From Chthonomonas sp. (lineage in GTDB: Bacteria > Armatimonadota > Fimbriimonadia > Fimbriimonadales > Fimbriimonadaceae), in NCBI GenBank assembly GCA_016788115.1, contig JAEURR010000005.1, positions 248,001 through 312,000 of the forward strand: 64,000 nucleotides of DNA, given 5' to 3'. A model generated the notes under the pieces. It worked only from the letters and a program-made list of their open reading frames with translations, had not been told where the DNA came from and ran no database searches. A program made the translations under genes and the position numbers. Positions 15,291 through 30,134 of this stretch are shown in pieces (within the stretch, counting starts at the first letter, position 1; each line of letters begins with the position of its first letter).

Positions 15291-16670
15291 ATGGGCCAAT
15301 CGGATAAGTCTCTGCGAGTCGAATGGGAGCGAGGTTTCCGCGTGCTCCTAAACGGGAAAGAGCGTAAGCTCTCGCCTCGCAAGGCGGTGCCTCTTCTTTC
15401 GAGGTTGGTGTCGACGCCCCGGCACAGTCTATCGCGAAGTCAAACCGCAGCCTGGCTCTGGCCCGAAGCAAGTCCGACCAAGGCCGACGCCAACCTTCGC
15501 CAGCTGCTCGTCCGCATGCGGCGCGACCTCGGCGATCCGGACATCGTGCAACTGGCCGAATCGACGATTCATCTTGGGCCGTACAACGTTTCGAGCGACC
15601 AGGGGGTCGATTGCGCCGGATTCCGAACATTGGTCGAAGAACAGGACTGCGACGGGTCTTTCGACCCTCACGCCTGGGCGGCGGGCCTTGCCGTGGCTGG
15701 TCTTCAAGACTCGCCTAAGCGGGAGCTCGCCAAGCTTATCGACTGGTACTCCGAGCGCGATCCGCTCGCGGGGATGAAGCTCTTGGCCGACGCGTGGCAA
15801 GTCGCCTCCGCGATTGAGGGCGACGTGCTGGTTAACCTCACCAAGCGATTGCTGCGCGTTCAGGGAGGCGGCACAGACCGAGGATGGGTCCTCGCTTTGC
15901 AGGGCGCGGGATTGATGAGTTCGGGGCATGCGGTGCAGGCGAAGCCTGTCCTGCAAGACGCTTTCCATATCGGTCGCCGGGCGAAAGAATTCGCGATGTC
16001 GGCACAGGCGGCGTTTTGGATGACCTTTTCGCTCACCGAGGCGCGCGAGTACCGCTCCGCCGCAAGGATCGTTCGGTGGCTGTTCGATCTGGGAACCGAG
16101 ACCCAAGATCGCCTCACCCTCGGTCGCGCCCACCACTTGCATGGAGCCATCCTTTGGCATCATCGGGAGTTCAAGCAGGCTGAGCTGGAGCTCTGCGCAG
16201 CGATCAAGCATCTTGAATGCTCCGAATCGCCCATCGATCTCGTTCATGCTCGCTCGAACTACGCGGTCATGGCACGGGACCTGGGGTCGCCCGAGATCTA
16301 CGAACAACAGCGGATGCTTTCGGAAGGGCTCCTCGCCGAAGTGGAGGATTGGCGTTTACCGGTCGTGTTTGAATACGCCGGCATGCTCGCCGCCACGCTG
16401 TCGGGCGATCCGTACAAGGCACTCTCTGCGGGCGCAAATCTCGAACAGCGGTTCCGGCAGCATGAGCCGATGCCACTGTGCTTACGCACCATGGTTTTGG
16501 AGGCCGATGCGTTGGCCGCAGAGCAAGCGGGCGAGGAGGAACGCGCCCTCCGAGACTTGAGGCAAGCCAACGATCTACGACGAAAGCTCGGATACGCGCG
16601 AGCTCCCTACGAGGCCGCGCGTATCGTCAGTCTTGAGAACCGTATCGGACGACGTCGCCCCCGCTATTAG
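15291..16670 (+). CDS. BTAD/SARP-like transcriptional regulator with TPR-like C-terminus
   Basis: The 459-aa protein begins with an OmpR-type winged helix (about 8-100). LLNGKERKLSPRKAVPLLS corresponds to the platform, and SQTAAWLWPEASPTKADANL to the recognition region of BTAD regulators, with LGPYNVSSDQGVD as the wing end. The rest is alpha-helical with repeated Ala/Leu-rich pairs typical of TPR or BTAD helices, probably for ligand or partner sensing. No NB-ARC ATPase module is present, unlike large SARPs. TACAAT lies at 15275-15280, ten bases before the ATG. Its 3' end overlaps the convergent ALDH7 by 4 bp (TTAG carries both stop codons). Confidence 0.82.
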   Translation: MGQSDKSLRVEWERGFRVLLNGKERKLSPRKAVPLLSRLVSTPRHSLSRSQTAAWLWPEASPTKADANLRQLLVRMRRDLGDPDIVQLAESTIHLGPYNVSSDQGVDCAGFRTLVEEQDCDGSFDPHAWAAGLAVAGLQDSPKRELAKLIDWYSERDPLAGMKLLADAWQVASAIEGDVLVNLTKRLLRVQGGGTDRGWVLALQGAGLMSSGHAVQAKPVLQDAFHIGRRAKEFAMSAQAAFWMTFSLTEAREYRSAARIVRWLFDLGTETQDRLTLGRAHHLHGAILWHHREFKQAELELCAAIKHLECSESPIDLVHARSNYAVMARDLGSPEIYEQQRMLSEGLLAEVEDWRLPVVFEYAGMLAATLSGDPYKALSAGANLEQRFRQHEPMPLCLRTMVLEADALAAEQAGEEERALRDLRQANDLRRKLGYARAPYEAARIVSLENRIGRRRPRY

Positions 16671-18196
16671 ACGTCGAACCGAATCCCTTGTGCCAGAGCT
16701 GGCTTCTCTCGGCCAAAGTACGTTGTGCTGGTCTGTCGGCGCATGTACGCCTTCCAACTGTCAGAGCCCGACTCGCGGCCACCGCCCGTCTCCTTCTCCC
16801 CGCCAAACGCGCCGCCGATCTCCGCACCGCTCGTGCCGATGTTCACGTTGGCGATGCCGCAATCGCTGTGTCGCTTGAAGTACTCGGCCTCGCGAACGTC
16901 GGTGGTCATGATCGATGAGCTCAGCCCCTGCGGGACCTCGTTATGAAGCTCCATGACCGATTCCAGATCGTCGTAGGGCATTACGTAGGTGATCGGCGCA
17001 AAGGTCTCCGCGTGAATCGTGGCACTGTGCGCCGGCAAGTGCACGAGGGCAGGCTTTACATAGTACGCTTCCGCGCCCATCGTCTCGAGCGTTCGGGTGC
17101 CACCGACGATGTCGAGGGCCTCGCCGCGGACTCGATCCAGCGCCGCCTGCATACCATCGTAAGCCAGACGGTCGATCAGCGGACCGACGAGCGTGGTGGG
17201 CTGGAGCGGGTCACCGACCTTGTTTTCGCCGATGAACTCGTAAGCCGTCTTCAGGTTCGCAACCACTTTCTCGATGAGCGAGCGATGGACAAAAACCCGT
17301 CGCGTGCTCGTGCAGCGCTGACCGGCCGTCCCGACGGACCCAAACAGGATCGACGGGATGGCGATTTCCAGGTCCGCGCTCGGGGTCACGATGATCGCGT
17401 TGTTACCGCCAAGTTCGAGCAGGCTGCGCCCAAACCGCGCTGCGACTTTGGGGCCGACGATGCTACCCATGCGGCTACTTCCCGTGGCGCTGATGAGCGG
17501 GATGCGGTGGTCTTCAACCATCTGACTGCCCTGCTCGACTGCGCCAAGAATAACCTGACTGAGCCCTTCTGGAGCTTGCGGGAAGTCCTTGGCGACCTCG
17601 TCAAAGAGGCTCTGACACGCGAGAGCAGTGAGTGGGGTCTTCTCGCTAGGCTTCCAGAGGCACGAGTCGCCGCAAACCAACGCCAAGCACGCATTCCACG
17701 CCCACACTGCGACCGGAAAATTGAAGGCGCTGATGATGCCGATGGGACCGAGCGGGAGCCAGTTCTCTTGCATCGTGTGGTTCGGTCGCTCGCTTGCGAT
17801 GGTCAATCCGTAAAGCTGGCGGCTGAGACCAACCGCGAAATCGCAGATGTCGATCATCTCCTGAACTTCGCCGCGGCCCTCTTCCAGAATCTTGCCGCAC
17901 TCCAGGGTCACCAGTTGCGCCAGTTCTTCCTTGTGCGCGCGCAGGGCCTCGCCGTAACGCCGGACGAGTTCGCCGCGAATGGGGCCGGGGACTTCGCGCC
18001 AGGAGCGGAACGCTGCGACCGACCGGGCGATCTTGGAATCGACCTCGGCCTTCGAGTCGAACTTGAGCTGAGCGAGCGGCTGCCCGTCCACCGGCGAGTG
18101 GACCGTCAGGTCCGAACCCGCGAAGCGATCAAGGTTGGGGATCAGCCGCCGCACGACTTCGGCGTGGGCAGTCGACAGTGCAGAACTTGGTGTCAT
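16667..18196 (-). CDS. ALDH7-family aldehyde dehydrogenase (aminoadipate-semialdehyde dehydrogenase type)
   Basis: The 509-aa NAD(P)-dependent dehydrogenase has catalytic Cys295 (GQRCTSTRRV), general base Glu261 (LLELGGNNAI) and cofactor Lys182 (WKPSEKTPL). The C-terminal GGAFGGEKETGGGRESGSD and SWKAYMRR are hallmarks of ALDH7 (antiquitin), which oxidises alpha-aminoadipic semialdehyde in lysine catabolism and also betaine aldehyde. ATG 18196 is preferred over the longer frame because a TACACT box lies six bases upstream and the family starts here. The lysine-degradation partners are not adjacent. Confidence 0.93.
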   Translation of the reverse strand: MTPSSALSTAHAEVVRRLIPNLDRFAGSDLTVHSPVDGQPLAQLKFDSKAEVDSKIARSVAAFRSWREVPGPIRGELVRRYGEALRAHKEELAQLVTLECGKILEEGRGEVQEMIDICDFAVGLSRQLYGLTIASERPNHTMQENWLPLGPIGIISAFNFPVAVWAWNACLALVCGDSCLWKPSEKTPLTALACQSLFDEVAKDFPQAPEGLSQVILGAVEQGSQMVEDHRIPLISATGSSRMGSIVGPKVAARFGRSLLELGGNNAIIVTPSADLEIAIPSILFGSVGTAGQRCTSTRRVFVHRSLIEKVVANLKTAYEFIGENKVGDPLQPTTLVGPLIDRLAYDGMQAALDRVRGEALDIVGGTRTLETMGAEAYYVKPALVHLPAHSATIHAETFAPITYVMPYDDLESVMELHNEVPQGLSSSIMTTDVREAEYFKRHSDCGIANVNIGTSGAEIGGAFGGEKETGGGRESGSDSWKAYMRRQTSTTYFGREKPALAQGIRFDV

Positions 18197-18202
18197 GCCC
18201 CT

Positions 18203-18208
18203 AGTGTA
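18203..18208 (-). promoter_or_regulatory. -10 box of the ALDH7 gene, probably leaderless
   Basis: On the minus strand TACACT precedes the ATG by six bases (AGGGGC). It lies in the 31-bp gap after the AAA ATPase gene. Confidence 0.5.
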
Positions 18209-18227
18209 TCTCTTCGACCCCGAACGG

Positions 18228-19733
18228 CTAGGCGTCAGACTGCACGATCGCGCTCGGCCGAGCACGCATGCTCGCCCAAGTCCGTAGTTCGTCGATCTCT
18301 TCCGCCATCATGCGGCTGAGAGGCACCTGGGTCTTGGACTCTTCGAGCAGATCGTCCATGGCAAGTTCCCGGCCGGCATCGAAGGCATGGAACAGCCCGG
18401 CAATCACCACTTGCTCAATCTCGGCCCCCGAGAATCCTTTGGTGGCCGCGCTGAGAGCGGGAAGGTCGTAGCCCTTCGGGTCACGTTTGCGCTTGCTCAG
18501 GTGGATCGCGAAGATCTCTTCGCGCTCCTTTGCCCCCGGAAGGTCCACGAAGAAGATCTCGTCGAAGCGCCCTTTGCGGAGCAACTCGGGAGGGAGTTGA
18601 CTGACGTCATTGGCGGTCGCGATGAGGAAGACCGGTTTCTGCTTCTCCTGCATCCAGGTGAGGAAAGTCGCGAACACACGCTTCGCGGTACCACTGTCTC
18701 CAGAGCCCGAGCCCGCGACTCCGGCAAAACCCTTCTCAAGCTCATCGGCCCACAGACAGCACGGCGCGAGCGACTCAGCGGTCCGGATCGCCTTGCGGAT
18801 GTTCTCTTCGCTCTGTCCGACCAGCGAACCGAAGATACGACCGACGTCCAGCTTCAGCATGGGTAGATTCCACGTCGCTGCGATCGCCTTAGCCACCAGA
18901 GACTTTCCACAACCCTGGACACCCAGGAGCAAGATGCCTTTGGGCGCGGGGATTCCGAACTCCTTAGCTCGGTCAGTGAAACTCTTGGTGCGCTTGTTGA
19001 GCCAGTCCTTGAGCAGGTCGTGGCCGCCTACGTCCGCGAAACTGTGCTCGGCGGGATAGAACTCAAGCAGCCCCGACTTGCGGACGATCTGCTTCTTCTC
19101 TTCGATGATGACGTCGATGTCAATCTTCTTCCTCTCGACCACCGAGCGCATGAACGCGCTCTCGATCTCATCACGCGTCAACCCTTGGGCCGACTTGATG
19201 AGCAACTCGCGCAAGTCGGGTGCGACTTCGGTCGAGACGCCAGCGACGTCCTTCACGTTGTTCAACGTTTCGTCCAACTGCGCTTCAATGTCCTTGCGCT
19301 CGGGGAGCGGAAACTCGATGACGGTGAGGTCCTTCTCCAACTCAGTGGGCAGGACGAGCGTCGGCGCAACGATGACCAGCGTCTGCTTGCGGCTACGCAA
19401 CCCGAATGCCAGGTCCCGCAGCAGGCGTACCACGCGGGGGTCCTTCATGTACGGGTGGAAATCGCGTAGCAAGTAGATCTTTCCGTCCGAACTCTCGCGG
19501 ATCAAGGCCAGCACTTGAAGTTCGCTCGCGAGCGACTTGAGCTTCTCCGCCACCTCGGCGCTGACCGGGCTCGGCGACATCCCCTGCGTGAGCGACCACG
19601 AGTGCAGCGTCCGATCGAGCGTCTTGCACACCTGCTGCAGCGCCTCTTCGACGCGCCTCTCCTCCCAGCTCACCACGTACAGGATCGGGTAGCGCGAACG
19701 GGCCAGGGTCTCAAGTTCTCGTGCGATGTCCAC
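18228..19733 (-). CDS. Ycf46-like AAA+ ATPase
   Basis: The 501-aa protein has an N-terminal region (1-230) starting [20 protein letters not shown], as in chloroplast/cyanobacterial Ycf46. A classic AAA module follows: Walker A GVQGCGKS at 271-278, Walker [11 protein letters not shown] at 325-334, sensor 1 IATAND and arginine finger region [12 protein letters not shown]. In cyanobacteria Ycf46 is linked to regulation of photosynthesis and carbon uptake; in heterotrophs its role is unknown. GTG 19733 follows a TAACTT box by six bases. The ALDH7 gene downstream has its own predicted promoter. Confidence 0.9.
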
Positions 19734-19776: not shown

Positions 19777-20625
19777 CTACCTGCTCGTTCTGACCATGTA
19801 CTCGGCAAGCGCCTTGCCAGCCAGCTGGCCCAAAAGTTCGTGAGCACGCCGAGTGGGATGAACGTCGTCCCAGAACAGGTACGCATCAGGGTTGATTCCG
19901 CTGAGACCCATGGCTTGCGAGGTGACGTTTGTGAACCCATAGGCCTGCGGCGACATCACGATGTCCTTGAGCTTCTGCTCAATGTCGAGGAGCACCATGG
20001 TCGTCGCCGGATACAGGCTCCGGAGCAGAGCAATCCGCGCGGCCAAGGCCGCGTTGTGGCCCGTGGTCAAGTTCGTCATCGCGTTCTGGTTCGCGCCGCC
20101 GACGTAGCGTGGGATCAGTCCGAGGGGAGGCAAATTGGGGACGAGGATCAGACGAGCACCGGCGCTCGCAAGGCGAGTGATGTCCGAGCCGATATTGTTG
20201 ATGGCCGTGGTCCAGTTCGTCGCGCCATCCAGGTAGTCGTTTCCGCCGATCCAAAGAACGAACAGATCAGTCGCAGCCGGGCTGGTACGGCTCAGGTACC
20301 GGCTCACTTGGGTCGCACAGTTAGCGATCACCAGGCTCACGTATCCCGAGCCTGTTTTGGCACCACCGAACGCGTAGTTCCAACCATTCGCCTGACTGCG
20401 GACGACCGACCCAAGGTGAAACCTCGTGGAGAAGCGCTCGATCCATACCGGACCATTCGAGAACCGCCCACTCCAATAGCCCGAACCTGGCGCAAACCCA
20501 AACGTCACCGAGTTCGTATTCCCCACGTCGCTGAGACTATCCCCGAAGATGACGACCTTTTTGATCTGCGCTTGGGAACTGACGGCGGCAACTAAGACCG
20601 CGACGGCAACAAAAATGCGACGCAT
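19777..20625 (-). CDS. Secreted GDSL/SGNH lipase-esterase
   Basis: The 282-aa hydrolase has a signal peptide (1-19, cleavage after SQA). SGNH blocks I (VVIFGDSLSDVGN, nucleophile Ser30), III (WIGGNDYLD) and V (FWDDVHPTRRAH, Asp and His of the triad) are all present. The FGDSLSDVGN form is that of the plant/phospholipase-lecithinase-hemolysin GDSL branch. It follows the outer-membrane barrel gene by 18 nt on the same strand, with its own TAGAGT box five bases before the ATG. Extracytoplasmic esterase; substrate unknown. Confidence 0.93.
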   Translation of the reverse strand: MRRIFVAVAVLVAAVSSQAQIKKVVIFGDSLSDVGNTNSVTFGFAPGSGYWSGRFSNGPVWIERFSTRFHLGSVVRSQANGWNYAFGGAKTGSGYVSLVIANCATQVSRYLSRTSPAATDLFVLWIGGNDYLDGATNWTTAINNIGSDITRLASAGARLILVPNLPPLGLIPRYVGGANQNAMTNLTTGHNAALAARIALLRSLYPATTMVLLDIEQKLKDIVMSPQAYGFTNVTSQAMGLSGINPDAYLFWDDVHPTRRAHELLGQLAGKALAEYMVRTSR

Positions 20626-20643: not shown

Positions 20644-23247
20644 TCAGCGGGCGAATGAAAACTCAAGCGTTAGATCGAAACCGTTTGAGCGATACGCGCC
20701 GCTCGTGACTTGCGGATCGCGGCTCTGGACGCGCCGCCACCGATAGCCCGCGTTGAGCGCCAGCGTGGACCAGATGCGGTAGCTGTAGGTCAGACCGAGA
20801 TCGCTGCTGGACTGTGGCAGATATCCGCTCGATCGGGCGCCGTAATAGTCAAGACTCATCGAGTGTCGGTCGTTCAGCAGGTAGCGCACATTGCCGAAGA
20901 GCGAGTTGCTGTCTTGACCGAGTGAAGAATTCCCCGAGGCATGGAACAGGCTGCTGCCGAACGTGTACGAAAAGCGGCCTTTGGGGCTGCCGTCCAAGAA
21001 GAAGTTGACGTTGGTCGCCCCGGCGGTGAGCGGCGAGGTGATGTACCTCGTGTTGCTCCGGTCGAGGGTGACGTTGAGTCGGTGGTTTGCAGGAGCGTCG
21101 TAGCTCAGTCCGATGCTTGTGGCCCGGGTCACCGCGTTGGCACTGACGTTCCCGCTTGTGCGAGTGTTCCTGGCAGAAAGGTCGAGCTGCAATCCGGTGG
21201 TAACCAGGTATCGGGCCCCTAGCGACCACAATTCGTAGTTCGATGCTCCGCTGAGGAGGTTGCTTTCGGCCCCGCCGCTGAACCCGTTGCCATCAAACCC
21301 GATGCCCGACCCGCCCTGGTAGCCAAGCAAATTGACTTGGTTGCCAGCATCGGCAAGCGCATAACGTGCTCGAAACTCTAGCCGTTCCGAGGGCTGGAAA
21401 TTGGCCAGCAGTTCGTAGTCCCGGGCCGTCCCGCGCGCTGTGCCAGACTTCACTGCGTTGTATCCAACGTTCGTGCTCACGTTGAACCGATTGCGGTACG
21501 CGTAGCTCGCGCCGAGCTTGGCTCCAAAGACGTTGAACGGGGTTGTAGCTGTTGTGTTGCTCGTGCGGCCACTCGTCCGATTGAGACCCAAGCGCAGGTC
21601 GATGGGACCGAGCCGGTGACTGCCCGTAAGGTCGGTCGCGTCGGACTGTGAGCGGCTGGTCGCCAAGTTTGTGCGAGACCGCGCATGCTGCATCGTCCAG
21701 CGCGTGTCGTCTGTTGGGCGGTAGGTCGCGGTCCCAATGGCGGACGTTACGCGCGCAGCATTGAAAACCGTCTTGCCGGTCGTACTCGTGCTTCGAGTGC
21801 TGATCCGCGCGTTGCTTTCGCTCAGGGCCAGCGTCATCCGATCGCTCGGGCGTAGTTCCACGCGGGCGTCATGCGCCTGCTCGTTGCGGTTGAAACCGGT
21901 GGTCTCGATACCGACGAACCCCGTGGGTACATTGCGGACGCTGGCGGTCCAGATCGCCTTGCCTGACTGGTAGCGCACCTGCGCTCCCCGCGCGGTTCCG
22001 CTGCTCGGAGTGACCGTCTTCATCAAGCGGCCCGTGGCTTGGTAGATCGAGAATTCGCCCTGATTTCCGCGACGTCCCAACGGGATCGAGTAGTCGAGGC
22101 CGAGCACTTGGCGATCCCCGTCAACCGTACTGCGCGGCTTAGGCGTGTAGATCACGTCGATCCGATCCGTCGACGGCATGAATCGCGAGAAGTAGAAGAC
22201 GGCAAGATTGTCCTGGTCAAATCGGTAGTCCAAGCCGAGCGTTTGGATGATGCCGTTCACGCGGATCGTCACGCTCGCCGCGTTGATCGGCTCAAACTGG
22301 AGGAAGTACGGCGTGCTCGGTGCCCCGAACCCCTCGAACTTCTCAAGTCGCTGGCTCGATTGGCTGCCTCCTGCCGCAATCTGCTGGACGATGCTCGCGC
22401 CGATGCGCCCGGCCTTGCCCATCTGGTAGTTCACTGCCCCGCCACGCAGCGTCCCCGCCTTGGTACCGAACCCGAGTGCTTCGTAGGTCGCGACGATCGT
22501 GCTCGTTGGCGCGATGACTCGGTTCACGAATTGGATCGCGCCTGCGTCGTAGTCGATGACGTAGTCCGTGCCCGTGACCTGCGTAACCCCGTCTACTTGG
22601 ATCCGCTCCGTGCCCCGCAAAATCTGGTTGGACTGGAGGTAGTACGGCCCCGCAGAGTTGGCCCCTTGCAGCGAAATCGTCCTCGCGGTGCCCCGCACCT
22701 TGCTCTGAAGGACCTTCGTCGTCAAGTTGCCCGTGCGCACGCTCGCCTGAATCCCGCGCAAGCTCTTGTTCACCGTCGCGAATCGGTTGGTGTTGAGTAG
22801 CGAGGCGTAGATATCACCGGCATTAACGGTAACGCCGCGCTTGATGTAGTCCAGGCTGAAACGCTGGCCCTGCGGATCGTTCAGGCGGGAGTCAAGCAGC
22901 GTCCCCTCAAAGTTGAATAGCCCCAAAACGTTCCGGCCTGTGAAGTCGATCTGCCCAAAGTCGGTAAACCGCTTCTGCCCCTGCCCGAAGTAGTTCAGCG
23001 AGTCATACGCGCCGCGGTCCCCGCTCACTTGGTGGTTGTGGTAGCTCAGCCGGCGGTAGCCGCTCAGCTGGATCCGCTTGACCACTTGGGCTTGAACCTC
23101 TTGGATCAGCGTCCTCTTGGGCTTCTTCTTGACAACAGGCGGGAGCGTTTGAACCGGCGTCTCAGCCGTAGGTGGTGGTGTCTGCGCCAGCGCAACCCCT
23201 GAAGCCAGCAAGATCAGGCACGGGAACGCCGCTCTCAACCAAGGCAC
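20644..23247 (-). CDS. Large outer-membrane beta-barrel protein of unknown function
   Basis: The 867-aa protein has a signal peptide (about 1-21, SGVALAQ), a Pro/Lys-rich linker (TPPPTAETPVQ then VVKKKPKR), and then long alternating amphipathic strands with many Thr/Ser/Asn/Arg and aromatic ends, closing with FDLTLEFSFAR. Around 215-250 is a phrase (IQVDGVTQVTGTDYVIDYDA followed by IQFVNRVI) seen in small domains of predicted outer-membrane or surface proteins; a second near 325-345 reads IRVNGIIQTLGLDYRFDQ. No SLH, TonB plug or POTRA domain is recognised. GTG 23247 overlaps the end of csaB by 13 bp, tying it to cell-wall polymer modification. Confidence 0.75.
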   Translation of the reverse strand: MPWLRAAFPCLILLASGVALAQTPPPTAETPVQTLPPVVKKKPKRTLIQEVQAQVVKRIQLSGYRRLSYHNHQVSGDRGAYDSLNYFGQGQKRFTDFGQIDFTGRNVLGLFNFEGTLLDSRLNDPQGQRFSLDYIKRGVTVNAGDIYASLLNTNRFATVNKSLRGIQASVRTGNLTTKVLQSKVRGTARTISLQGANSAGPYYLQSNQILRGTERIQVDGVTQVTGTDYVIDYDAGAIQFVNRVIAPTSTIVATYEALGFGTKAGTLRGGAVNYQMGKAGRIGASIVQQIAAGGSQSSQRLEKFEGFGAPSTPYFLQFEPINAASVTIRVNGIIQTLGLDYRFDQDNLAVFYFSRFMPSTDRIDVIYTPKPRSTVDGDRQVLGLDYSIPLGRRGNQGEFSIYQATGRLMKTVTPSSGTARGAQVRYQSGKAIWTASVRNVPTGFVGIETTGFNRNEQAHDARVELRPSDRMTLALSESNARISTRSTSTTGKTVFNAARVTSAIGTATYRPTDDTRWTMQHARSRTNLATSRSQSDATDLTGSHRLGPIDLRLGLNRTSGRTSNTTATTPFNVFGAKLGASYAYRNRFNVSTNVGYNAVKSGTARGTARDYELLANFQPSERLEFRARYALADAGNQVNLLGYQGGSGIGFDGNGFSGGAESNLLSGASNYELWSLGARYLVTTGLQLDLSARNTRTSGNVSANAVTRATSIGLSYDAPANHRLNVTLDRSNTRYITSPLTAGATNVNFFLDGSPKGRFSYTFGSSLFHASGNSSLGQDSNSLFGNVRYLLNDRHSMSLDYYGARSSGYLPQSSSDLGLTYSYRIWSTLALNAGYRWRRVQSRDPQVTSGAYRSNGFDLTLEFSFAR

Positions 23248-24299
23248 CCGAGAAGGACGTCGATGTTCTTTTGGGCCTCAACCCGTTGCTTCGCGACCGC
23301 GTTCGTCACGGCGCGCTGCATTTTCTCCCGGGCTTCGTAGAACGACGCGTACGCGTCGAACACACGCTGCGCGCTGATCCCTTTCATCGACATGGCTGCT
23401 GGCAATCCCATCAATTGACTAAACGCCGAAACTTTGGGATCGTAACTAAGCATGAAGGGGGCGGTCCCCGCGCACGCCGCGAGGATCCCCGCGTGCAAGC
23501 GCATCGCGACCAAACCATCCAGTCGCATGATCTGGCGTTGGAAGTCGCCGGGAGTCGTGATGTCCTTCAGCGTGGGAATGCGCCCCCCGCTCTTCTCGCG
23601 GATTGCAGCGATGAGCTTGGCGTCCTCTCCACGGTCCATCGCGATGAGCACGGGCACCATTTTGCCCTTGATGAAGAGCGAGCAGAGATCTGAGAAGAGG
23701 GCAATGGTGGAATCGTCATTGCCAAATGGACGCGGAGAGATGCCGATGGCGGGCATGCCGCCAACGGAAAAGCTCTCTACCGCTCCCCCCGGCTCGGCGT
23801 TCGGCAGCAAGTAAGCCATGTCGGCCCCCACGCGCGGAATCTGCTTGACACCTAGGCTCTTCAGAGTCTGCACTGAACCAGGATCGCGAACGACGATGGC
23901 ATCGGCGGCATTGAAGGCGGCGGTTGCCGCCTTCTTTCCGAGACAGTGGGTCAGCGGGCCGACTCCTTGGCCCAACATCACGACCTTCTTTCCCGCCTTC
24001 TTGGCGACCTTCACGAGGTTCGCGTAGTACAGGGTGCTTCGCCAACTGGTGACGTCCTGGAAGATGCTTCCGCCGCCGAGGACCAGCGCATCGGCGTTTT
24101 GGATCTCCTGCGCGTAGGCGGACATGGTTCGCCGCGGAATGCACCGCACCGCGTACCCCTGGACGGAGCCAGCCTGGCCGCCGTACATGACGACCGGTTC
24201 TATCTGAGCTGCATGCAGGGCTTCGAGACAGCCGCCCATGATGGCGTCATCGCCAAGGTTGCCCTCACCAAAGTAGCCTGCCAAAATGACCTTTCGCAC
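23235..24299 (-). CDS. csaB: Polysaccharide pyruvyl transferase CsaB
   Basis: CsaB adds ketal-linked pyruvate to a cell-wall polysaccharide that SLH-domain proteins bind. The 354-aa protein opens VILAGYFGEGNLGDDAIMGG, has LVLGGGSIFQD, VMLGQGVGPL, VRDPGSV and the C-terminal MRLHAGILAACAG that are characteristic of the family. GTG 24299 is the family start and lies two bases after the DUF5693 stop, so the pair is translationally coupled; the upstream in-frame extension falls inside DUF5693. No SLH-domain protein is seen in this window. Confidence 0.94.
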   Translation of the reverse strand: MRKVILAGYFGEGNLGDDAIMGGCLEALHAAQIEPVVMYGGQAGSVQGYAVRCIPRRTMSAYAQEIQNADALVLGGGSIFQDVTSWRSTLYYANLVKVAKKAGKKVVMLGQGVGPLTHCLGKKAATAAFNAADAIVVRDPGSVQTLKSLGVKQIPRVGADMAYLLPNAEPGGAVESFSVGGMPAIGISPRPFGNDDSTIALFSDLCSLFIKGKMVPVLIAMDRGEDAKLIAAIREKSGGRIPTLKDITTPGDFQRQIMRLDGLVAMRLHAGILAACAGTAPFMLSYDPKVSAFSQLMGLPAAMSMKGISAQRVFDAYASFYEAREKMQRAVTNAVAKQRVEAQKNIDVLLGCLG

Positions 24300-24301
24300 G
24301 G

Positions 24302-26140
24302 CTAGTTCGCCTCCCGTAGAGTTGGCACCAGCCGTCTCAACACAAGCCACAGCGCATATCCAAAGAGCCCGCCGATGACCCACCCGATGCCGATGCGGGC
24401 CAGACCTAGCAAGATCGGAGTGTGCAGATGGCAGAGCGTATTGACGACGCTTGTCAGGGCGATGGTCCCCACGGTGATGCACGCGACCGCCGCCAATTCG
24501 AGGCCTTTGCTTTCGCGCTTGTGGCCAAGAGCCAAGAGCATCAGTCCGACAACCATCGCAGGGTGGCCGATCAGAAACTCCTTAGTGCGAGGCCGGGTGT
24601 AGAGGACCCAGTCGAGCAAGCTTCGGAGTTTGAGCTCCAAACCGCTGACCGCCGCGGGATTGTCGTTCCCGGTGCGGGCGAGCAGCATGCTCACGACGAC
24701 GAGTGCACCCAGGCCAGCTACGATTCCGAGCCACGTCGCGGGTTTGGCAAGAAGAGCACGCATCGAAACGCGCCGCTGCAGCAGATAGACGCCGATGACG
24801 AGGAGCGGCAGGAAGTGCGCCGCCTTGACCCCCGAGAACTCATCTATGTGCAGGAAGTAGGCGCGACCGTTGAGGATCCCCGCGATGCTGAGGCCACCCA
24901 CAAGGCTGATGGCGGTCAAGACGAGGTAGCAGAGCCACGGGCTTACGCGCTCGCGCGACTCCAGCCAAACGATGGCTGCCACCGGGAAAATGAGCGCCGC
25001 GAGGAATGCAGGGACCCACGCCACCGAAGGGACTTGGCTCGCTGCCGCAGCGAGCAGGGCCATGACGCCGATGGCTACTTGTAACGAAAACGATCGGAAC
25101 AGGGTCTGTCCCAGCCACACTGCGACGAGCGCACCCCCGGCAGCGATCAGCAGTTTGAGCACTCGCGGAACTTCTGTTTCGCCGAACGGCTTGGCCGGGC
25201 CGATGGCAACACCTTCTCGACCGAGGCCACTCCGGACCAGTCGTAGCGACTCCAGGATCGGTTCGTCCGATGCCGCGCTCGCGGTGGTGACGGGCCGAAG
25301 GAGCAAAGTCCGAATGTTCCGTTCCCGGGCGGCCTTGCTGTACCGTTCCACGTACTCGGCGGGCGAGGCCTTGTCGACTTCCGCGGACTGCATGCTGTGG
25401 AGCCGGATCAGCCGATCTTCGCACAACTCGGCCATCCAGGTATCCCCAGCGATCTTGGCGAACTCTGGCGAGTAATAGTTCAGCTGAAGCTGCGCGAGCA
25501 ATTCTGCAGTCTCCTTCACAAGCCCCCGCTGGCCCAGCACCTGCTCGCCTTCCGGCAGGTAACCAATCGCTCCGCGCGCTTTCGAAAGTTTCAGCAGCTC
25601 CGCGATCTCGGTCGCATCAAGCCCGAATCCATTCGAATGTCGAGCGATGATCGGAAGTCCGGCAGTGACGATGACGCGCGCACGGTCTGGATCGATCCCC
25701 AGCGAATAGCCGCGAATGGTTTCGAGGGAGACGTTCACCAATTGGAGCCCCTGACTTTGGTCGGGGATGAGGTTGATGTAGCTCTTCGGAGCCCGGCGAT
25801 CCAAAACCACCTTGACACGCGCGACCACCGACGGGATGCCGCGAACAGTGATCCCTGCATCAGTGGGAACTGCCCACAGTTTTCCCTCATCAAGGGCTTC
25901 GCCGATGGTCTCTTCGGACAGCACCACTGCGCCGAGCCCAGCCTGTTTGGCCCGAGCAAGGAGCCCGCCCACATCGCCGGCGGCGGACCCTTCGAGGATT
26001 GACATCTCCATGGCCAGCGTCGTCGCTTCATTGTGCGATTCGACCGAAATGCGTTCCTTGATCGAAAGCAGCGCCGCAAGGGCAGTAACGACCATCACGA
26101 TCGCGACCCAGCGAGGGAATTGAGGACGAGAATCAGTCAT
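24302..26140 (-). CDS. DUF5693 integral membrane protein
   Basis: The predicted 612-aa protein has one N-terminal TM (about 11-27) and a large extracytoplasmic domain (about 30-330, with VVLSEETIGEALDEGKL and LRLVRSGLGREG). A C-terminal block of about eight TM helices starts near KLLIAAGGALVAVWLG. This layout and its position just before csaB match DUF5693, a family found next to csaB in many SLH-bearing bacteria and thought to act in secondary cell-wall polymer assembly. ATG 26140 (with TTG 26146 as alternative) overlaps the rhomboid stop by 8 nt. Confidence 0.88.
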   Translation of the reverse strand: MTDSRPQFPRWVAIVMVVTALAALLSIKERISVESHNEATTLAMEMSILEGSAAGDVGGLLARAKQAGLGAVVLSEETIGEALDEGKLWAVPTDAGITVRGIPSVVARVKVVLDRRAPKSYINLIPDQSQGLQLVNVSLETIRGYSLGIDPDRARVIVTAGLPIIARHSNGFGLDATEIAELLKLSKARGAIGYLPEGEQVLGQRGLVKETAELLAQLQLNYYSPEFAKIAGDTWMAELCEDRLIRLHSMQSAEVDKASPAEYVERYSKAARERNIRTLLLRPVTTASAASDEPILESLRLVRSGLGREGVAIGPAKPFGETEVPRVLKLLIAAGGALVAVWLGQTLFRSFSLQVAIGVMALLAAAASQVPSVAWVPAFLAALIFPVAAIVWLESRERVSPWLCYLVLTAISLVGGLSIAGILNGRAYFLHIDEFSGVKAAHFLPLLVIGVYLLQRRVSMRALLAKPATWLGIVAGLGALVVVSMLLARTGNDNPAAVSGLELKLRSLLDWVLYTRPRTKEFLIGHPAMVVGLMLLALGHKRESKGLELAAVACITVGTIALTSVVNTLCHLHTPILLGLARIGIGWVIGGLFGYALWLVLRRLVPTLREAN

Positions 26141-26810
26141 GGTCAAATGAGAACTGCTTTCCTCTGAGCAATCGCTGAGGTCCCCCTGCGATGATCACGG
26201 TCAGCATGCCAGCGAGGAACCCGCCCGCATGGGCCCAATTGGCTACGCCCTGCTGGGGGAAAATGATCTGCCACAGGAACCAAAGGCTAAGAAGGATCCA
26301 TGCGGCAACTTCGACGGGCCAAAACAGGAACGGAAAGACGATCAGTGTAATGCGGTTTGCGGGGAAAAGCAGGAAGTAGGCTCCAAGAACCCCGCCGATG
26401 GCCCCCGATGCGCCCAAAGTGGGGACGCCCGAGCTTGCCAGAACGAGTACGTGCGCGACCGAGGCAAACAAGCCCCAGAACAAGTACATCACGGTGTAGC
26501 GTGCTGGGCCCATGGCCGCCTCGACGTTCTCGCCAAAGGTCAGCAAGAAGATCAGGTTGCCGATCAGGTGGGTGAGGTTGCCGTGGAGGAACAGCGATGT
26601 GAACAGGGTCGTCATCGCCTTCCAGTCGCCGTGGCCCGTGACGGCGGCGACCACATCGCGCGGCTTCATGGTGAGATCCGAAAAGACGACGCTCGGTCCG
26701 AGCAGCGCACCATTCCGGTCCCACAAGTAAATGATCACGTTGAGCGCGATCAACGTGTACGTCACCACGGGTGTTTGGCGGGAGTGCGCGTTATCGCGGA
26801 CAGGGTACAT
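26133..26810 (-). CDS. Rhomboid-family intramembrane serine protease
   Basis: The 225-aa polytopic protein has the rhomboid catalytic dyad: Ser135 in LGASGAIGG and His194 in WAHAGGF, plus the HGNLTHLIGNLIFL helix that supplies the oxyanion His/Asn. About six or seven membrane helices are visible. Rhomboids cut single-TM substrates within the membrane. Its stop overlaps the DUF5693 start, placing proteolysis in the same translational unit as CsaB. A MarR regulator gene lies 33 nt upstream. Confidence 0.95.
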   Translation of the reverse strand: MYPVRDNAHSRQTPVVTYTLIALNVIIYLWDRNGALLGPSVVFSDLTMKPRDVVAAVTGHGDWKAMTTLFTSLFLHGNLTHLIGNLIFLLTFGENVEAAMGPARYTVMYLFWGLFASVAHVLVLASSGVPTLGASGAIGGVLGAYFLLFPANRITLIVFPFLFWPVEVAAWILLSLWFLWQIIFPQQGVANWAHAGGFLAGMLTVIIAGGPQRLLRGKQFSFDHD

Positions 26811-26843
26811 CGTGCAATGCGGAGTGTACCAACCCCGGTCAAC

Positions 26844-27305
26844 TTACAGGAGCGGGTTCTGAGGATTGCCTAAAGTTCGATGAAGTACTGAGCGCATGCA
26901 CGCGGCCTCATCGGGGCTCATGTGCACTGCGAAATGTTCTTGGATGAGCGCGGCGTAGCACGGCCAAGTCTCCTTGCGCGCTTGCTCTCCTTGCGGGAGG
27001 AGCGCACAGAGGTAGCTGCGACGATCTTGAGGATGGACGATTCGCTGGACAAATCCCTTCCGTTCAAGACGGTCCACCAACCGTGTCAGGCCGCTGGGGC
27101 TGAAAACGACGCGCCGAGCCAGCTCGCTCATCGTCATGCGCTGATCGGGCGCGTCTTCGAGAGCCAGCAACACATCATAGAGCTCCAGTGTCAGGTGCCC
27201 CCGTTGCTCCAGCTCGGCGTTGAACTTGCGCGTGAGCGTGGCATGGCAAAACAGCAGGCTGCCCCAGACTCGTCTTTGAACATCGCCTAGCACCGAATCT
27301 CCCAT
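26844..27305 (-). CDS. MarR-family transcriptional regulator
   Basis: The predicted 153-aa winged-helix protein has recognition helix and wing in MSELARRVVFSPSGLTRLVD and RLERKGFVQRIVHPQDRRSY, as in MarR regulators. ATG 27305 (GDSVLGDVQRRVWGSLL) is preferred by alignment; a longer form from 27347 is possible. A TAAACT box lies nine bases upstream of this ATG. It reads into the rhomboid-DUF5693-csaB-barrel operon and is divergent from the subtilase, so it is positioned to control either. The ligand cannot be inferred. Confidence 0.9.
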   Translation of the reverse strand: MGDSVLGDVQRRVWGSLLFCHATLTRKFNAELEQRGHLTLELYDVLLALEDAPDQRMTMSELARRVVFSPSGLTRLVDRLERKGFVQRIVHPQDRRSYLCALLPQGEQARKETWPCYAALIQEHFAVHMSPDEAACMRSVLHRTLGNPQNPLL

Positions 27306-27461: not shown

Positions 27462-30134
27462 ATGAAACGGCGAATCCCGATTTTCAACCTGAGGCAGCGC
27501 ACCCGATCCTGCCCACCCATGCTCAGGCTTGGCGCGCTGACCACAGCGTTGCTGGGCGTCATGGCCGTAAGTAACGTTGCGCACGCGCAGACATTCACAA
27601 ACGTTACAGCGCTCAAGCGCATCGAGGCGAGCTCAAAGCGGCAAGCCGATCGCGAGCAGGCGGCGGTCCAGAAATTTGCCGAGCGCACGGGTCTACCCAT
27701 GCGGCAGGTGCTCCCAAACGGGGGAATCAGCATCTTGAGCCGCATCGAAAACAACCGACCGATCTACGTTCAGACTTGGGGCCTCTCGGACGCCAAGACG
27801 GTAGAAGTGGATCGACTGTGGCCTGGCGGTGACTTGGGATTGGGCCTCACGGGTGCGGGTGAAACACTGGGTATCTGGGAAGCAGGTGGAAACCCCGAAA
27901 CGACTCATGTTGAGTTCGGTGGCCGAATCACAATCCGGGATGGAAACGTAACGGTCAGCGACCACGCGACCCACGTCGCGGGCATCATGGCAGCGGGAGG
28001 AATCAATCCGCTGGCAAAGGGGATGTCGTACCAGGCGAACTTGAGCGCGTACGACGCGTTTAATGATGCGAGTGAAGCAGCGATTGAGGCTGCTGGCGGG
28101 CTGGAAATCTCGAACCACTCGTACGGTGCCCGCAGCGGTTTCCAATGGCTCGGTGAGTGGTACTGGTACGGCGACCCGGGCGTTGACGCCTTCTACGACT
28201 ACACGTTTGGACGTTACGATTTCGGTTGCCGCCAGTGGGACGACCTTCTGTACGCCGCACCGTACTACCTGTCGTGCTGGTCCTCGGGTAACCAGCGCTA
28301 TCCCGGCGTTCCGACGACGGCTTTCCAGCACAAGGTGTGGAACGGTACCGCTTGGACCGACGTCACCGCAGCTCGCGATGCGCAGGAGTACTATGACACC
28401 ATTACCGGTGAGCAGTCGTCCAAGAACGTGCTTTCTGTCGGCGCGGTCGAAACGACCGACGGAAACTACCTGAACCCCTCCAGTGTTCGACTCGCCGACT
28501 TTTCGAGCACCGGACCAACCGATGACGGACGCATCAAGCCCGACGTCGTCGGCGTCGGTGTCCAAGTCCTTTCGTCCGTCCCGGGTAACGGCTACGCGCG
28601 ATTTAGCGGCACCAGCATGTCCTCGCCAAACGTGGCCGGTACCGCAGGCTTGGTGAACCAACATTACAAGCAGGTCATCGGCTCGCGACCGCTGGCAGCA
28701 ACCATGAAGGCACTGCTCATCCACACTGCCAAGGAAGCAGGTCGGGTGAATCAGCCGTTCCTCGTTCAGCCTCGCGTCGGTCCCGACTACCTGTTCGGCT
28801 GGGGATTGGTGGATGCGGCAGCTGCTGCCCAGCAGATCAACCGCGCTTCGTTTGATCCGCTAGCGATTCAGGAGTTGGTCCTGAATCAAGGGCAGACGTT
28901 ACAGTTCCCAATCGCAGCAACCAATGCGGGCCCAGTCAAGGTGACGATTGCTTGGACCGACCCCGCGGGTACAAGCGGCCCAATCGCAGCCAATGACCGC
29001 ACTCCGAAGCTGGTCAACGACCTGGATCTCCGAGTCGTTCGAAATTCAGACAACCAGGTGTTCATGCCTTGGGTCCTAGACCCGGCGAACCCGGGCAACC
29101 TTGCGACGTTCGGGGACAACTTCCGCGACAATGTGGAGCAAGTCTACATCTCGGTCCCGACGCCCGGTCTGTACACCGTTGAGATTAGCCACAAGGGTGG
29201 CTCGCTGTTGCCGACGGGTAGCCAAGCGGTTAGCGTCGTCACCACGGCCATCGCTCCTGATGGATATGAGGCACTCACGCTGGCCCCAAGCGCAGCCGTA
29301 GGTGGTGTCGAGAACGCGGCCGCCACGCTGACACTGGTCGACCCTGCCACGGATGATCACGTCGTCAGCCTCACGAGCAGCAATCCGAGCGCAGCGTCGG
29401 TCCCGTCCACCGTGACCGTCCCGCAAGGCCAGTCTTCGGTCACTATTCCGATTACGACCGCGTCGGTACGCCCGGCTCCGGGTCGAAGCTCGGTAGACGT
29501 GACGATCATCGCCGCGAGTAGCCTTGGCAACCGCAGCGTGCTCCTCCACGTTCTCCCGATCGGCATCGGCAGCTTGACGCTCGACCCCGACGCAGTCGTC
29601 GGCGGCAACACCGCGACCGGCTTCGTCACGCTGAACGCTCCCGCGGCTCAGTACGGCGCAGCTGTGGTGATCACGAGCGACCTACCTGGCGTTGCCAAGT
29701 CAACCCGCAACTGGATCCTGATCCCGCCGGGCAAGACGACCGGTGAATTCAAGATCCGCACAAAGCCGGTCACGTCGCAATCGACGGTCATCATCCGAGC
29801 CAGCCGCTTGGGTAGCGAAGCCGAGGCGGATCTGACCGTGCTCCGAACGTCGCTCACTTCGCTGGTCTCGTCGCCGAGCGACCCGGTCGGTGGCCAGACG
29901 CTCAAGCTGACGGTCAGCCTCAACGGCCCGGCACCGACAGGCGGTTCAACCGTGACTCTGTCAAGCAGCAACTCGGCGATAGCGCCAGTCCCTGCTTCGG
30001 TTCAGATCCCGGCGGGACGCAAGACGGTGGTCGTAAACGTACGAACGTCGGCTGTATCTGCAGCCACGAACGTCACGTTCACCGCGGCTCGTTTGGGAAT
30101 CACCAAGACCTCGCAGATCACCGTTCGACCGTAA
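27462..30134 (+). CDS. Secreted subtilisin-like serine protease (S8) with C-terminal Ig-like repeats; Glu at the usual Asp position
   Basis: The 890-aa protein has a long signal peptide (about 1-42, VAHAQ). In the S8 domain, His171 (DHATHVAGIMAA), oxyanion Asn277 (WSSGNQ) and nucleophile Ser385 (SGTSMSSPNVAG) are clear. The catalytic Asp position in the GIWDGG-type motif reads GIWEAGG (Glu140). A beta-sandwich P/propeptide-like domain (about 470-600, LVNDLDLRV) follows. Three repeats of roughly 90 residues, each with VGG and S-S-N-P-type turns (about 600-890), finish the protein, probably as cell-surface or spacer modules. A TAAAAT box lies at 27398-27403. A terminator follows at 30153. Confidence 0.9.
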   Translation: MKRRIPIFNLRQRTRSCPPMLRLGALTTALLGVMAVSNVAHAQTFTNVTALKRIEASSKRQADREQAAVQKFAERTGLPMRQVLPNGGISILSRIENNRPIYVQTWGLSDAKTVEVDRLWPGGDLGLGLTGAGETLGIWEAGGNPETTHVEFGGRITIRDGNVTVSDHATHVAGIMAAGGINPLAKGMSYQANLSAYDAFNDASEAAIEAAGGLEISNHSYGARSGFQWLGEWYWYGDPGVDAFYDYTFGRYDFGCRQWDDLLYAAPYYLSCWSSGNQRYPGVPTTAFQHKVWNGTAWTDVTAARDAQEYYDTITGEQSSKNVLSVGAVETTDGNYLNPSSVRLADFSSTGPTDDGRIKPDVVGVGVQVLSSVPGNGYARFSGTSMSSPNVAGTAGLVNQHYKQVIGSRPLAATMKALLIHTAKEAGRVNQPFLVQPRVGPDYLFGWGLVDAAAAAQQINRASFDPLAIQELVLNQGQTLQFPIAATNAGPVKVTIAWTDPAGTSGPIAANDRTPKLVNDLDLRVVRNSDNQVFMPWVLDPANPGNLATFGDNFRDNVEQVYISVPTPGLYTVEISHKGGSLLPTGSQAVSVVTTAIAPDGYEALTLAPSAAVGGVENAAATLTLVDPATDDHVVSLTSSNPSAASVPSTVTVPQGQSSVTIPITTASVRPAPGRSSVDVTIIAASSLGNRSVLLHVLPIGIGSLTLDPDAVVGGNTATGFVTLNAPAAQYGAAVVITSDLPGVAKSTRNWILIPPGKTTGEFKIRTKPVTSQSTVIIRASRLGSEAEADLTVLRTSLTSLVSSPSDPVGGQTLKLTVSLNGPAPTGGSTVTLSSSNSAIAPVPASVQIPAGRKTVVVNVRTSAVSAATNVTFTAARLGITKTSQITVRP

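Follow-up and report, generated by a model that had tools for sequence, protein, structure and literature searches.

Two questions are still open: how the chains of the secondary cell wall polymer (SCWP) are completed and attached to the wall, and how diderms of the SLH type came to build their outer membrane. Here, we asked what a gene for the pyruvyl transferase CsaB does in one operon with an intramembrane protease, a DUF5693 membrane protein, and a giant beta-barrel. The operon lies in a 64,000-nucleotide stretch of a Chthonomonas sp. genome of 2.4 Mb (G000:C5:248001-312000, hereafter the window), whose named relatives are Fimbriimonadales of the phylum Armatimonadota. A preliminary description had read the locus as a single envelope-anchoring unit under a MarR regulator.

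Layout and conservation of the operon

All five genes lie on the minus strand of the window:

26844..27305, minus strand: MarR-family regulator gene (PF12802 MarR_2, 52 bits), flanking and not a conserved operon member
26133..26810, minus strand: rhomboid intramembrane serine protease of 225 aa, at the head of the conserved genes (PF01694, 106 bits, E 2e-30)
24302..26140, minus strand: DUF5693 membrane protein of 612 aa, a candidate for SCWP assembly (polymerase/ligase) (PF18949, 365 bits)
23235..24299, minus strand: CsaB polysaccharide pyruvyl transferase, GTG start (PS_pyruv_trans PF04230, 124 bits; TIGR03609, 227.2 bits)
20644..23247, minus strand: predicted SprA-like giant outer-membrane beta-barrel, 867 aa, signal peptide, GTG start (AF2 model, PDB structure matches, partial TIGR04189 match)

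The tight packing of these genes was confirmed. The rhomboid and DUF5693 genes overlap by 8 nt, CsaB starts 2 nt past the DUF5693 stop, and the CsaB and barrel genes overlap by 13 nt. A promoter scan of the region found none, and the number of terminator-like signals was within chance expectation. A GDSL lipase/esterase gene (window 19777-20625, minus strand) begins 18 nt past the barrel stop on the same strand; its nearest relatives are PlaA-type lysophospholipases, but below cut-off, and it is not conserved beside the operon. Farther on is an aldehyde dehydrogenase gene (window 16667-18265, minus strand), which scores as L-piperidine-6-carboxylate dehydrogenase at 737 bits against a cut-off of 730.

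The MarR gene does lead the run, 33 nt upstream of the rhomboid gene. However, it stands beside the operon in the window only, as no relative had a counterpart there at the 39 DUF5693 loci or the 77 barrel loci compared. Because the gene is not conserved beside the operon, its proposed role as operon regulator was rejected. A large secreted S8 subtilase gene (window 27462-30134, plus strand) is divergent from the MarR gene and is a possible MarR target.

Gene order was compared across relatives. Around DUF5693, the rhomboid, DUF5693, CsaB, and barrel genes occur in the same order and on the same strand at 28 of 39 loci besides the window. An alignment-based search with the barrel retrieved 77 loci, all from Armatimonadota or unnamed bacteria, and among these the full four-gene set is present in most Fimbriimonadaceae. 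All four genes are also found at L140 and in the Armatimonadaceae genome L147, with barrels ~22% identical to that of the window. Searches of 131 genomes spread over Armatimonadota detected DUF5693 in 127 of them, CsaB in 130, and a full-length relative of the barrel in 93. DUF5693 was also detected in the control genome, Thermus composti. In 107 of the 125 genomes having both, DUF5693 is the gene immediately before CsaB; for CsaB immediately before the barrel, the corresponding count is 51 of 92 (11 families); with many assemblies fragmented and the sampled genomes not independent, these adjacency counts are lower bounds.

Since the same order and strand recur in most relatives, the rhomboid-DUF5693-CsaB-barrel arrangement is far beyond chance, and the linkage is ancient within the phylum. 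The preliminary description held that absence of the barrel and rhomboid from the csaB-DUF5693 neighborhood of relatives would count against it. They co-occur there, and because the linkage is real and ancient, this comparison came out in its favor. It had also called CsaB and DUF5693 a known pair, which is true of genomes, although a literature search gave no paper naming DUF5693. A search pairing Armatimonad with CsaB likewise found no paper. The operon is real and conserved, and apparently undescribed.

The conserved neighborhood often extends beyond the barrel. Many loci carry downstream of it c5 and c6 (CarboxypepD_reg, lipoprotein-like), c4, and c7 (LptC and LptA/LptD_N domains). The c4 product is a secreted protein of about 900-1,050 aa whose C terminus is a FlgD_ig domain only in deep lineages, and its gene lies downstream of the barrel on the same strand at 29 of the 52 loci with room for it. 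In the window's genome, a c5-c4-c6-c7 run is found instead at L152:3219-9575 (G000:C5, about 217-224 kb), 45 kb from the barrel. This run adjoins a gene for a secretin-like protein of the PilQ/GspD type.

In 41 of 92 genomes there is no linkage between CsaB and barrel, partly through fragmented assemblies, and the barrel lies apart from the operon in G013 and G016. DUF5693, CsaB, and SLH proteins are kept in the nearly complete genome G027, in G030 (same family; a reduced genome of 1.5 Mb), and in G010, and no full-length barrel match was found in these three; G027 and G030 gave no match to the barrel of any kind. In G010, c5 and c7 occupy the place after CsaB, in a stretch without barrel, c4, or c6, a single hint that barrel and c4 were perhaps lost jointly. 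These separations argue against the four genes forming one anchoring unit.

CsaB, DUF5693, rhomboid, and the separately encoded SLH porin

CsaB passes the TIGR03609 equivalog cut-off (227.2 vs 213.1 bits). In Paenibacillus alvei CsaB, R148, R306, H308, and K328 bind PEP (PMC10435577); by motif and spacing, their counterparts here are R136, R265, H267, and K287. Among 49 sequences, at least 95% conserve these PEP-site residues. At the level of the family, ketal-pyruvyl transfer to ManNAc is the candidate activity.

The genome encodes a single SLH protein (616 aa, L033:3476-5326, G000:C3), unlinked to the operon. Its architecture is that of the OmpM type: signal peptide, SLH domain, a helical stretch or coiled coil, and a porin-like barrel. 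Its SLH domain carries the Trp, the Gly, and the TRYE of the W...G...TRYE motif, which in SLH domains contacts ketal-pyruvate (PMC10628300). SLH is present in 58 of 61 relatives, and SlpA/OmpM proteins have been reported from Armatimonadetes (PMC9388160). Thermus csaB mutants are described, in secondary citation, as defective in outer-membrane attachment or as having lost it (cited in PMC6282519). By eye, a gene for a caspase-like (metacaspase-type) protein of 1000 aa (L033:5625-8627) is divergent from the OmpM-type gene.

The diderm envelope attachment proposed earlier stands in part: the PEP-binding residues of CsaB are retained and an SLH porin is encoded in the genome, but that porin is unlinked and the operon barrel is not the tether. 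The anchoring half is ordinary chemistry, for which analogy gives good support, with the tether itself encoded elsewhere.

The DUF5693 protein matches its Pfam family at 365 bits against a gathering cut-off of 29. In its AF2 model (pLDDT 91.7), a (beta/alpha) barrel domain lies between a single helix and a set of nine. Three parts are referred to below:

25166..26032, minus strand: predicted periplasmic (beta/alpha) barrel domain, residues 37-325 (AF2 and VIA-align)
24560..24676, minus strand: invariant loop predicted to face the periplasm, R489-TGN ... E502 ... R506 ... R516-P-R-T-K520-EFLIGHP (alignment A3)
24416..24430, minus strand: second predicted periplasmic motif, invariant H571-L-H573-T-P575 (alignment)

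The best VIA-align matches of the barrel domain are LamB/YcsF (2dfa, Z 13.8; 1v6t, 13.7) and a divergent polysaccharide deacetylase (2nly, 13.1), which barely exceed TIM barrels (12.5) and are not discriminating. A sequence-profile search of the PDB gave nothing useful for DUF5693, and comparison of its membrane half with known transferases in Pfam gave nothing significant, with O-antigen ligase best at 15.4 vs 31 bits in one of ten sequences. The residues of the loop at 24560..24676 are invariant or near-invariant in alignment A3 and are kept in Pontibacillus. R489, E502, R506, R516, R518, K520, H571, and H573 are invariant, lie in loops or at helix ends, and are predicted to be periplasmic, the side being assigned from the alternation of helices in the AF2 model. 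The invariant membrane-domain residues, from R489 to H573, persist in Pontibacillus as well.

In Pontibacillus and Paenibacillus, the DUF5693 gene is clustered with csaB and with genes for transferases of the TagA/WecG and TagO/MraY types. Both genera lack an outer membrane. As it occurs in the SCWP clusters of such bacteria, with its residues kept in Pontibacillus, DUF5693 is a general SCWP gene and not an outer-membrane gene, and we infer that it is a candidate SCWP polymerase or ligase.

The window rhomboid has its Ser (GxSG) and His dyad. By pattern search, GxSG is present in 75 of 75 operon rhomboids, and 71 or more have the His motif. An identity as rhombosortase was considered and rejected (TIGR03902, 19.1 bits vs a cut-off of 84).

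Fold and role of the giant barrel

In a Pfam scan the barrel protein matched zero families; its signal peptide was seen by eye. A single-sequence search gave zero matches, as did a search among plasmids, and a sequence-profile search of the PDB did not find SprA. The AF2 model, built from 57 sequences (pLDDT 86.5, pTM 0.72), has ~36 long strands (34-38 by DSSP) and two short inserts. VIA-align places SprA at all of ranks 1-3 (6h3i, Z 19.6 over 510 residues; 8gl6, Z 19.2 over 630; 6h3j, Z 17.5), followed by maltoporin (Z 17.1 over 271 residues), with porins in the lower ranks. By E-value in Foldseek, Mtr, SlpA, and TonB receptors rank above SprA.

The SprA family model TIGR04189 matches 50 of 57 barrel family members, weakly and partially. 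The window barrel scores 34.4 bits against a cut-off of 200, over residues 197-289 only, which comprise the first insert and its flank. The two inserts are:

22477..22659, minus strand: first SprA-type insert, residues 197-257, GPYYL...VDG...DYxIDYxxGxIxF (TIGR04189 positions 592-686, E 3.5e-9; invariant G-P-Y)
22138..22332, minus strand: second, similar insert, residues 306-370, GFGAPSTPYFLQFEP...VNG...DYRFD (conserved in alignments A1/A2; short strands outside the modelled barrel)

The predicted fold is thus closest to SprA, yet the protein is outside the SprA family as defined. The carrier PorV was found in none of 21 relatives, a search in which the positive controls were equally silent. 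Elsewhere in the genome, L150:2084-5560 (G000:C4, minus strand) encodes a secreted protein of 1158 aa with one SprA-type motif in its N-terminal region and a barrel-like C-terminal end; relatives of ~1,170 aa with the same weak SprA-type match occur in most Fimbriimonadales.

Could the barrel itself anchor the outer membrane by engaging the pyruvylated polymer, with the four genes making one attachment machine? Its close linkage with CsaB and DUF5693 over the phylum fits this idea. Furthermore, Deinococcus tethers are also giant barrels (SlpA, 28-30 strands; PMC10628300), and SlpA structures are among the Foldseek hits. However, the barrel lacks both an SLH domain, as had been described, and a coiled-coil stalk; the SLH porin is a separate gene; and G027, G030, and G010 keep CsaB, DUF5693, and SLH without a detected full barrel. 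The missing SLH domain led us to reject the barrel as an SLH/OmpM protein. With its fold closest to that of SprA, a secretion translocon, we regard its use as the anchor as improbable.

A channel that exports or assembles a glycan or glycolipid (the SCWP itself or an LPS-like molecule) rather than proteins would suit the linkage with polysaccharide genes, the LptC and LptA/LptD_N domains of downstream c7, and the AlgE match given by VIA-align (Z 14.8). That match does not surpass those of ordinary porins, though, and the best match, SprA, transports folded proteins. SCWP-type polymers bound by SLH stay in the periplasm and need no export. We consider such a channel unlikely.

A further improbable reading makes the barrel a large porin or uptake channel of general function in a convenient envelope operon, with DUF5693 and CsaB as the sole functional pair. 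Adjacency of CsaB and barrel is looser than that of DUF5693 and CsaB, and porins do fill the lower VIA-align ranks. Nevertheless, the linkage is kept in 11 families, down to ~22% barrel identity, and SprA covers 510-630 residues of the model, about twice the coverage of porins.

A proposed envelope module and its relation to known systems

Our preferred reading, to which we give a probability of about 0.5, is of an envelope module, conserved in Armatimonadota and combining SCWP pyruvylation by CsaB, SCWP assembly by DUF5693, a SprA-like export pore, and clipping or quality control by the rhomboid. From the computed gene identities, conserved order, catalytic residues, predicted folds, and OmpM gene, we infer the biochemical steps, the export role, and the rhomboid substrate as follows. 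CsaB would pyruvylate lipid-linked SCWP in the cytoplasm. DUF5693 would act on SCWP on the periplasmic side of the inner membrane, and its most likely task is polymer joining or transfer to peptidoglycan. The finished pyruvylated polymer would be the ligand of the separately encoded OmpM-type SLH porin, which would hold the outer membrane. The compact SprA-like barrel of ~36 strands would most likely be a pore through which large surface proteins are exported in folded form, and the best candidate for its cargo or partner is c4, the large secreted protein whose gene frequently lies right after that of the barrel. The rhomboid would probably cleave or quality-control a membrane protein of the module.

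The anchoring chemistry is already known; what would be new is a barrel resembling SprA and, in DUF5693, a candidate SCWP transferase. A wider proposal, which is possible but doubtful, is that a minimal SprA-type translocon exists outside Bacteroidota, in much of Armatimonadota, inherited together with SCWP synthesis, so that the machinery to export surface proteins and the means to attach the outer membrane would be made jointly, and that DUF5693 is a new SCWP polymerase/ligase family common to Gram-positive bacteria and SLH-type diderms. The phylum-wide operon supplies a testable candidate, DUF5693, for SCWP finishing and joining to the wall. It also ties a SprA-like giant barrel, a kind described until now as a secretion pore of Bacteroidota, to the building of the outer membrane in SLH-type diderms.

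Like the CsaB/SLH system of Bacillus anthracis, Paenibacillus alvei, and Thermus thermophilus, this one has a CsaB above its family cut-off with PEP-site residues and an SLH porin in the genome. Here, however, the operon of CsaB also includes a rhomboid and a SprA-like barrel but not the SLH protein, whose gene is unlinked. The operon barrel resembles OmpM/SlpA tethers as an outer-membrane barrel in a diderm, Terrabacteria-type envelope, but it has neither the SLH domain nor the coiled coil, and the OmpM-type protein is encoded elsewhere. DUF5693 resembles O-antigen ligase and Wzy-type membrane transferases in being polytopic, with invariant Arg and His predicted to be periplasmic, and in belonging to a polymer pathway. 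Unlike them, it has an extra predicted periplasmic (beta/alpha) barrel domain and ten predicted helices, and no significant sequence match joins it to them. Finally, the barrel resembles SprA, the type 9 secretion translocon and a giant single-chain barrel of 36 strands, in its predicted ~36 strands, its top structural matches, and a common short insert motif. Type 9 secretion is described in papers as a system of Bacteroidota, or of Bacteroidota-Chlorobi-Fibrobacteres. In contrast to SprA, the barrel has 867 aa against roughly 2,000-2,400, scores far under the SprA family cut-off, goes with no PorV match in the 21 relatives (controls silent), and belongs to Armatimonadota, where it is tied to SCWP genes.
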